From Acidithiobacillus caldus ATCC 51756 (GTDB lineage: Bacteria > Pseudomonadota > Gammaproteobacteria > Acidithiobacillales > Acidithiobacillaceae): a stretch of 64,000 bases of DNA. A program made the translations under genes and the position numbers. Of this stretch, positions 47,231 to 48,920 are shown piece by piece. The first letter of the stretch is position 1. Each line of letters opens with the position of its first letter. The stretch is taken from positions 2,056,615-2,120,614 of the forward strand of contig NZ_CP005986.1 in assembly GCF_000175575.2 (NCBI RefSeq), read 5' to 3'. Below the pieces are notes generated by a model. The model saw nothing but the letters and a program-made list of their open reading frames with translations. It made no database searches and had not been told where the DNA came from.

Positions 47231-47865
47231 CGAAGCTCCCGCGCATGCCTGCTCTGCAGTTTAAAGGCAGATGGTACTTGCCGCGCCACGATCTTGGCAA
47301 GGTCGCAGGGACGCCGGGGAGCCCCGCCGAACCGCGGCCCACCGGCCCCATGGCCGTGAGAGGCCGCTCCGCGAGTGAGCGCAAACGCCATAGCACCGCC
47401 CCAGGCTTACCAGCACATCGCGTACCTGACCAAGCGGAGTATGGTTCCGTAGACGACTAAATGCTTGCAATTACCCTATTTAGCGGTGGATATAAATCAA
47501 ACAACCATCCGGTTACACCGCAATTACATTTTTTACAGTCTATTGTAATTATTTGGAAAAGTTGATCCTATTTTCTGCTTATGTTTTCCTGATAACGGGA
47601 CGCTTATTGCCACATTGCATCCTATGTCCGGGAATCGACGGCCCATCCTGGTAGCCATGGCTCGGGTAGCTGCGACCCAGACCGTGGGCTATGCGCTTGC
47701 CTCCTGAATGCCGACCTACTTTTTTACCGAAGAACCGAGTCGCGGCGGTAACCAGAGCCCACCACCTTGCCCCTTACGGTCAAGGTGGTGGGCTGGAGAT
47801 TCGTTCGCACGGCATCTACGGCGCAGATGGAACTTTGCCACGACGTCCCACTCTAAGATCGTGCA
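47231..47865. other. Long non-coding region upstream of dapA with stable hairpins
   Basis: More than 600 bases without a gene. 47460-47600 is AT-rich and likely contains the dapA promoter on the minus strand. At 47652-47691, TAGCC/GGCTA encloses GGGT/ACCC, a nested stem followed by GCCTCCTG and a TTTTTT run at 47719-47725. At 47756-47794 a perfect 14-bp inverted repeat (AGCCCACCACCTTG with its complement, 11-base loop) stands without a T-tract. The region may encode further structured RNAs. Confidence 0.55.
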
Positions 47866-47945
47866 AGCAGCTGTGATGGTTGCGAGCGCATGTTTCTTCC
47901 TCCTTTGGTGGTTTTGGGCGAGGCTCAGGTCTCGCCCTTCTTTTA
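47866..47945 (+). ncRNA. Candidate small RNA 1 with anti-Shine-Dalgarno motif
   Basis: The unit TGGTTGCGAGCGCATGTTTC, then TTCCTCCTTT and a TGGTTTT stretch, ends in the terminator GGGCGAG (47916-47922)/CTCGCCC (47931-47937) with TTCTTTT. CCTCCTTT at 47899-47906 equals the 3'-terminal anti-SD of 16S rRNA. It is repeated, about 90% identical in a 45-base core, in the unit at 48004-48081. A possible -10 TAAGAT (47854-47859) has only a weak -35. There is no coding potential. The 5' end is estimated. Confidence 0.6.
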
Positions 47946-47968
47946 TTTTCCGACCGGTCAGGATGTAG

Positions 47969-47997
47969 TTGCATGCTGCCTAGACCTTTGCTAATAT
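47969..47997 (+). promoter_or_regulatory. Sigma-70-type promoter of candidate small RNA 2
   Basis: TTGCAT (47969-47974) and TAATAT (47992-47997) are exactly 17 bases apart and lie 18 bases before the repeated small-RNA core. This gives the downstream unit its own start near 48004. Confidence 0.65.
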
Positions 47998-48003
47998 TGT
48001 CTG

Positions 48004-48081
48004 GCAGCCAAATGCTGGTTGCGAGCGCATGTTTCTTTCCTCCTTTGTGGTTTTAGGGGCGTCCTTGACGCCCCTTTTTTC
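48004..48081 (+). ncRNA. Candidate small RNA 2 with anti-Shine-Dalgarno motif
   Basis: A roughly 78-nt unit bounded by a good promoter and a strong terminator. It has a short 5' hairpin (CAGC/GCTG), the core TGGTTGCGAGCGCATGTTTC shared with unit 1, CCTCCTTT at 48039-48046 in an unpaired linker, and GGGGCGTC (48056-48063)/GACGCCCC (48067-48074) with six T. Conservation of the linker and of the terminator position but not of the terminator sequence suggests a functional RNA family. An alpha/beta hydrolase gene starts 19 bases later, so the terminator could alternatively act as a leader attenuator. Confidence 0.7.
48056..48080 (+). terminator. Terminator of candidate small RNA 2
   Basis: An 8-bp perfect GC-rich stem with a 3-base loop is followed directly by TTTTTT, the strongest intrinsic terminator in this half of the window. 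Confidence 0.85.
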
Positions 48082-48099: not shown

Positions 48100-48870
48100 A
48101 TGCATCCAGCAGAGATTCCCTTCACCCTGCGCCACCCGAGCACAGAATGCGTCCGTGGTCGCTGGCAGGATGGCGGCTCGGGGCCCGTTGGCGTGTTCCT
48201 CCCGGGATTCGCCTCGACCATGGCTGGCAGTAAGTCCACCCTCCTCGCCCGCTTTGCCCGACAGCAGGGCTGGCCCTGGTGCCGTTTCGATTATCGTGGC
48301 GTGGGCGAGTCCGATGGCAACTTCGCCGAGCTTACCCTCTCCCGCTACCTAGAAGATCTCGCCCTCGTGCTCGACTTCATCGGTGACCGCCCGGTCCTGC
48401 TGGTGGGATCCAGTCTGGGCGGCTGGGTGGCGGCACTGGCGGGACAGCGCTGGCCGCAGCGCATCAGCGCTCTCTTGCTCATCGCTCCCGCCTTCAACTT
48501 CATCCCTTTGCTTTTTGCTGCACTGCCCGGCAACGAACAAGAAGACTGGCGCAAGACCGGTCTGCGCCGCTGGCGCGATTCCTACGGTCTTGGGGAGTTG
48601 GAGATGCGCTTTGACCTCGTGGCCGACAGCGCGCAATACGATCTTTTTCGCGAACCACCCGCCTATCCTTTTCCCGTCCACATCCTGCACGGCAGCGCCG
48701 ACACGGCAGTGCCCCTGCAGCGCAGCTTCGATTTTGCTGCCGTGGCGCGTGCGCGGCCCTTGTGTGTCGAGCCGCTTTCCGGGATCGACCACCGTCTGCG
48801 TGGGGCAGACACGGCACTGTTGCGCTCCACCTTCCATCTCTACTGCAGCGTCAGCCCCCAACGGCCTTGA
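48100..48870 (+). CDS. Alpha/beta hydrolase
   Basis: A 256-residue alpha/beta hydrolase: oxyanion/early loop PGFASTMAGSKSTLLA, CRFDYRGVGESDG, the nucleophile elbow VGSSLGGW (Ser), a late Asp in ILHGSADTAVPLQ, and His in GIDHRLRG. It resembles the small peptidase/thioesterase-like group (BAAT/YqiA-like). I start at the ATG at 48100 because the open frame upstream runs through the RNA terminator. Substrate unknown. It precedes groESL but has its own context. Confidence 0.85.
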   Translation: MHPAEIPFTLRHPSTECVRGRWQDGGSGPVGVFLPGFASTMAGSKSTLLARFARQQGWPWCRFDYRGVGESDGNFAELTLSRYLEDLALVLDFIGDRPVLLVGSSLGGWVAALAGQRWPQRISALLLIAPAFNFIPLLFAALPGNEQEDWRKTGLRRWRDSYGLGELEMRFDLVADSAQYDLFREPPAYPFPVHILHGSADTAVPLQRSFDFAAVARARPLCVEPLSGIDHRLRGADTALLRSTFHLYCSVSPQRP

Positions 48871-48894
48871 CAGGCCATACACAAGCTTTATCAT
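48867..48894 (+). promoter_or_regulatory. Promoter of groESL
   Basis: TTGACA (48867-48872) and TATCAT (48889-48894) are 16 bases apart, a vegetative-type promoter just before the CIRCE operator. It overlaps the last codons of the hydrolase gene. Confidence 0.6.
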
Positions 48895-48920
48895 TAGCAC
48901 TCGATGGCGGCGGCTGCTAA
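48894..48920. promoter_or_regulatory. CIRCE operator, right arm degenerate
   Basis: TTAGCACTC, nine bases, then GGCTGCTAA. The left arm is the exact consensus of the HrcA binding site; the right arm matches 7 of 9 (consensus GAGTGCTAA). It sits at the expected start of transcription of groESL, so HrcA repression of the operon is very likely. Confidence 0.8.

Follow-up and report, generated by a model that had tools for sequence, protein, structure and literature searches.

The locus analysed here raises the question of whether two short neighbouring units, each with a segment complementary to ribosome-binding sites, are genes for small regulatory RNAs (sRNAs), and if so how they are controlled and on what they act. 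We analyzed them in a window comprising the whole 64,000-nucleotide stretch of Acidithiobacillus caldus ATCC 51756 DNA, and in related genomes. Two small RNA genes, U1 and U2, were found at the locus, both on the forward strand and at approximately the positions given in Table 1, in agreement with the original prediction of two adjacent units with a common core. Each unit begins with a 5′ hairpin, continues with the single-stranded segment CAUGUUUCUU(U)CCUCCUUUG(G)UGGUUUU and closes with a Rho-independent terminator. The sequence common to both consists of GGTTGCGAGCGCATGTTTCTT, followed by (T)CCTCCTTTG(G) and then TGGTTTT, the two versions being distinguished by an inserted T and an absent G. 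Within this core lies CCTCCTTT, which we take to be the 3′ end of 16S rRNA, the anti-Shine–Dalgarno (anti-SD) sequence. At up to three mismatches, these two are the only copies of the shared stretch in the genome, and the core pattern had no match in 100 shuffles of the window. Folded from their predicted starts, U1 and U2 gave z-scores of about −3.5 and −3.4, respectively, relative to shuffled sequences. An independent terminator search retrieved stems at 47916–47937 (U1) and 48055–48075 (U2), and each unit does, as had been claimed, end in its own intrinsic terminator of differing sequence.

Table 1. Features of the U1–U2 locus, in window positions
Feature	Position	Strand	Basis and remarks
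U1 promoter, sigma-E (RpoE) type	47829–47856	+	GGAACTT 47829–47835, 16-nt spacer, TCTAA 47852–47856
U1 small RNA gene	47861–47945	+	start placed by promoter distance; end at T-run; fold z-score
U1 5′ hairpin	47861–47889	+	inner stem 47867–47872 with 47878–47883; covariation
U1 single-stranded core	47890–47914	+	anti-SD CCTCCTTT at 47899–47906; unpaired or weakly paired in fold
U1 intrinsic terminator	47916–47945	+	stem kept in relatives, sequences differ
Palindrome CCGACCGGTC(A/G)G (CCGACCGGTCGG)	47950–47961		identity 0.95 over 19 genomes; upstream of U2 promoter
U2 promoter	47969–47997	+	TTGCAT 47969–47974, 17 nt, TAATAT 47992–47997, extended −10 TGC
U2 small RNA gene	48002–48080	+	predicted start; end at T-run; fold z-score
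U2 5′ hairpin	48002–48025	+	stem 48004–48010 with 48016–48022; fold and covariation
U2 single-stranded core	48028–48053	+	anti-SD CCTCCTTT at 48039–48046; identity 0.99 (19 genomes)
U2 intrinsic terminator	48055–48080	+	terminator search; stem kept in relatives
Alpha/beta hydrolase gene	48103–48870	+	start approximate; Pfam Hydrolase_4, E 2e-17; syntenic with the pair

The units are conserved throughout the order. A DNA search matched the region in 23 of 40 relatives, and a covariance model of the 5′ hairpin and core (R1) matched 24 of the 25 near-complete genomes of Acidithiobacillales, in almost every case with the units as a pair. Copy number was two in every positive genome of the window's family except G008, in which U2 has decayed, and three in both genomes of the sister family (n=2). 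Only one R1 match outside the order (30.8 bits) was retrieved from 370 genomes sampled across the class; it lies inside a sensor-kinase coding sequence and was rejected as chance. When a species-level genome collection was scanned with a pattern, the matches were Acidithiobacillus and related records plus three unrelated, chance-like ones, none of these three being accepted as a member: two in Clostridia resemble ribosome sites read backwards, and one in Diapherotrites has no recognisable unit around it. A search for plasmid relatives gave no match.

Conservation within the locus follows the proposed elements, as seen in a footprint of mean pairwise identity over 19 family sequences, in which the DNA just upstream scored 0.35. 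For U1 the values were 1.00 for GGAACTT, 0.43 for the spacer, 0.91 for TCTAA, 0.90 for the hairpin, 1.00 for the core and 0.65 for the terminator. The part upstream of U2 gave 0.95 for the palindrome, 0.95 for TTGC, 0.40 for the spacer and 0.99 for TGCTAATAT, and the RNA itself 0.38 for the 5′ arm and loop, 0.85 for the 3′ arm, 0.99 for the core and 0.59 for the terminator. The cores are thus 0.99–1.00 identical, and the claim of tandem small RNAs with an anti-SD sequence is upheld by a segment both exposed and conserved in related genomes. The terminator stems of relatives keep their structure while their sequence changes. In the stem of the 5′ hairpin, changes on both sides were seen in five of six pairs (30 sequences), 92.8% of cells pair, a share that does not exceed 55.5% once the partner is slid, and the covariation score was reached in none of 500 shuffles, a control weakened by the relatedness of the sequences. 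In the U2 core, three genomes have TCTCCTTT and one has CCTCTTTT. With few exceptions each paralogue retains its own core form, TTCCTCCTTTGG in U1 and TTTCCTCCTTTG in U2, and U1 and U2 are therefore long-standing paralogues, not recent duplicates.

The two genes also have separate promoters, both conserved. Ahead of U1, all 21 family loci carry GGAACTT-N16-TC(T/C)AA, the spacing being exactly 16 nt in each, and GAAC...TC-type boxes precede all four syntenic units of the sister family. The published sigma-E consensus is GGAACTTTT/GTCAAA (PMC1804206), and one RpoE encoded here exceeds the curated cut-off (341 bits versus 236). With conserved boxes, correct spacing and RpoE in the genome, U1 has the features of the sigma-E sRNA class, and we infer that it is transcribed by sigma-E. 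A search upstream of rpoE itself did not turn up the motif, which leaves the local sigma-E consensus without independent confirmation; nor does the genome hold further exact copies, a count that is about the chance expectation and hence uninformative.

Within the family to which the window belongs, the conserved elements of the U2 promoter are TTGC and the extended −10 TGCTAATAT, the latter present in 19 of 20 loci. This promoter had been described as perfect with a 17-base spacing; the spacing is indeed 17, but the hexamers TTGCAT and TAATAT are weak and went unreported by a consensus scan. The palindrome, about 50 nt before the predicted U2 start, is probably an operator for U2; across the genome it had 16 matches compared with 22 in control orientation, an absence of enrichment that gives no sign of a regulon. 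The separate promoters place these sibling RNAs under separate controls. The original prediction was incomplete: it did not include the sigma-E promoter ahead of U1, and it missed both that U2 is controlled separately and that each paralogue has its own form of the core. At the locus in G008 (L021), U1 is kept, a recognisable U2 has been lost and the palindrome upstream of it has decayed as well.

A third, weaker CCTCCT unit, proposed at 47700–47725, was rejected: it has no stem and no fixed place, its distance from U1 being about 630 bp greater in the nearest relative. It falls in an 83-bp stretch (47639–47721) which is about 80% conserved in that relative (L002, L089) and has neither an Rfam match nor unusual fold stability. 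A long and almost perfect hairpin without a T-run, GCCCACCACCTTG...CAAGGTGGTGGGC, lies shortly before the U1 promoter at 47753–47802 (−32 kcal/mol, z −6), and a similar one, GCCCACCA...TGGTGGGC, is found upstream of U1 in the nearest relative (L089).

How might the two RNAs act? We consider it likely that they are two sibling trans-acting sRNAs, U1 made via sigma-E, which mask the ribosome sites of a limited set of mRNAs with the help of Hfq. U1 would be transcribed by RpoE (sigma-E) RNA polymerase during envelope stress, and U2 from a housekeeping-type promoter probably controlled by a factor at the palindrome. Each RNA would present an exposed U/C-rich seed with CCUCCUUU and a terminator U-tail suited to Hfq and, together with Hfq, would pair with the Shine–Dalgarno or start region of a limited set of mRNAs, so that 30S binding would be blocked and expression lowered. 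Hfq is encoded in the genome, and the A. caldus protein reportedly complements an E. coli strain deleted for hfq (PMC13029372). The units have what is expected of genes for Hfq-dependent sRNAs, namely a promoter, an exposed seed, a U-tailed Rho-independent terminator and Hfq in the same genome, and from sequence we infer Hfq binding, base-pairing and repression by both. Envelope or exported proteins would be a natural guess for the targets of U1.

We looked for targets by pattern searches and in a sample of 18 stretches plus the window, comprising 312 ORFs or about 14% of the genome. Start regions with at least seven contiguous complementary bases numbered 17 of 312 for U1 and 22 of 312 for U2, compared with 18 and 23 for the reversed cores, counts that are rough in that start sites were chosen by a simple rule. 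Target prediction against Shine–Dalgarno regions thus gave no excess over the controls, and the idea that the RNAs bind the sites of many mRNAs found no support. Even with up to three mismatches allowed, the locus itself is the only place in the genome that matches the 18-base complement of the U1 core. Genome-wide, 13 genes have AAGGAGGA-N-ATG, without a common theme, and only one porin-like gene was found, just below the family cut-off. No target common to several genera was found, the recurrent strong sites being confined to single genera. In one genus (L144, L172 and L174), the leader of a gene for a predicted secreted protein reads GTTGCGA(G/A)(C/G)GCATGCAAAGGAGGAATATCCATG, in which the sRNA's own GGTTGCGAGCGCATG, in sense orientation, stands beside a perfect complement of the sRNA anti-SD; this may be a target or chance.

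Other readings of the pair have to be weighed against trans-acting repression of a limited set of mRNAs, which the RNAs probably effect. As CCUCCUUU is the anti-SD sequence, they might instead be general dampeners of translation, occupying Shine–Dalgarno sites or competing with 16S rRNA across most mRNAs under stress in the manner of the betaproteobacterial 'toxic' sRNAs; there is weak similarity (20.7 bits) to one of these, RF02278, whose overexpression slows growth. This we judge quite unlikely, given that at least seven contiguous pairs are available in just 5–7% or so of the sampled start regions, not above controls, that AAGGAGGA precedes ATG in so few genes, and that the invariant core reaches well past the anti-SD, which points to longer, specific pairing. 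In reverse complement, the core can also be read as a full, ideal ribosome-binding site, AAAGGAGG-AAGAAAC-ATG for U1 and AAAGGAGG-AAAGAAAC-ATG for U2. As antisense to such a site, the siblings would be stress-controlled start-site blockers for SD-to-start spacings of 7 and 8 bases. The two Clostridia MAG matches outside the order, themselves apparent ribosome sites read backwards, fit this idea, which is nevertheless highly improbable, as the genome holds no such extended target within three mismatches and the ATG is lost in the U1-type copies of the sister family. An ATG in the core could open a conserved short peptide, MFLPPLVVLG or MFLSSFVVLG, with similar residues in both units, where the single-base insertion and the single-base deletion that distinguish U1 from U2 compensate each other. 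We rejected this reading as barely credible: the frame runs to the end of the transcript without a stop in most genomes, it is shifted in the U1 of L003, no ribosome site lies ahead of the ATG, and sister-family U1-type copies do without it.

The main rival for U2 is a role in cis, since the hydrolase gene begins about 20 nt past its terminator. The hydrolase lies directly downstream of the pair in all informative relatives, the sister family included, with the U1–U2–hydrolase order constant throughout; groESL usually comes next, and is not adjacent in one genus. U2, perhaps together with U1, might therefore be a leader of the hydrolase (often groESL) unit, a terminator or attenuator within its 5′ UTR, with the short RNAs arising by premature termination. 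We regard this as unlikely. U1 is bounded by a promoter and a terminator of its own, a second promoter comes after it, the predicted folds contain no alternative anti-terminator pairing, the conserved core is a single-stranded anti-SD and not a ligand pocket, and no riboswitch family matched. Furthermore, U1-type single copies are present at other loci in the sister family, which argues that the RNA can act alone.

These extra copies, one each in L155 (~2919) and L156 (~3174), have in common a promoter-like ATAAGAATATTA of a different type and the core GCTTGTTCCTTCCTCCTTTGGTGGTTT. Between the hydrolase and groES (48867–48920), a promoter-like TTGACA-N16-TATCAT is followed by TTAGCACTC-N9-GGCTGCTAA, a CIRCE-like (HrcA) inverted repeat with 7/9 matches in its second arm, so groESL seems to be under its own heat-shock control.

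The pair are real, conserved and apparently undescribed small RNAs. No description was found in the searchable literature, which is not the whole literature, and a 2026 study of A. caldus remarks that Csr-type regulatory sRNAs have not been found there (PMC13029372). The Acidithiobacillales thereby gain a well-supported sRNA family that combines a sigma-E promoter with an anti-SD seed, features known separately, and post-transcriptional control under envelope stress can now be tested directly in extreme acidophiles. The locus also offers a clean natural case of nearly one seed under two different controls, with RNAs that probably act on a limited set of mRNAs.

Anti-SD sRNAs had been described to us as known in alphaproteobacteria, which is correct, but they are also known in Neisseria, Bordetella and Burkholderia. 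An Rfam search returned nothing above curated cut-offs, and the families that the units weakly resemble (SorY, MmgR, RF02278, NmsRb and AniS) all scored far below theirs; the U1/U2 pair may work like these families but belongs to none. Closest in architecture, not descent, are NmsRA/NmsRB (RcoF) of Neisseria, likewise tandem similar sRNAs, each with a promoter, a 5′ hairpin, anti-SD segments, through which mRNA repression is reported to run, and a terminator. The match to NmsRb (RF02877) reached 18.6 bits (E 0.89) against a cut-off of 52, and the NmsRs differ in being tied to the stringent response and TCA-cycle genes and in having sigma-70-like rather than sigma-E promoters. RF02278 (betaproteobacteria toxic small RNA), Bordetella S17 and Burkholderia ncS27 share a single-stranded, CU-rich stretch that is complementary to ribosome sites, with hairpins and a terminator downstream of it. 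The RF02278 score (E 0.04) compares with a cut-off of 50 bits, and in that model there is an additional stem and part of the CCUCCU belongs to a hairpin. S17 depends on Hfq, and its repression via a ribosome-site match was shown by compensatory mutation, but it has a sigma-A promoter and is processed. SorY (RF02651, 27.2 versus 111 bits) and MmgR (suhB, RF00519, 21.9 versus 41 bits) likewise run from a 5′ hairpin through a CCUCC segment to a terminator, but come from another class of bacteria, the alphaproteobacteria. A weak RybB match at 47756–47794 was discarded as an unrelated hairpin outside the units. The enterobacterial RybB and MicA have omp targets and no sequence similarity to U1/U2, yet they too are short, Hfq-dependent sRNA genes with strongly conserved sigma-E boxes directly upstream (PMC1804206).
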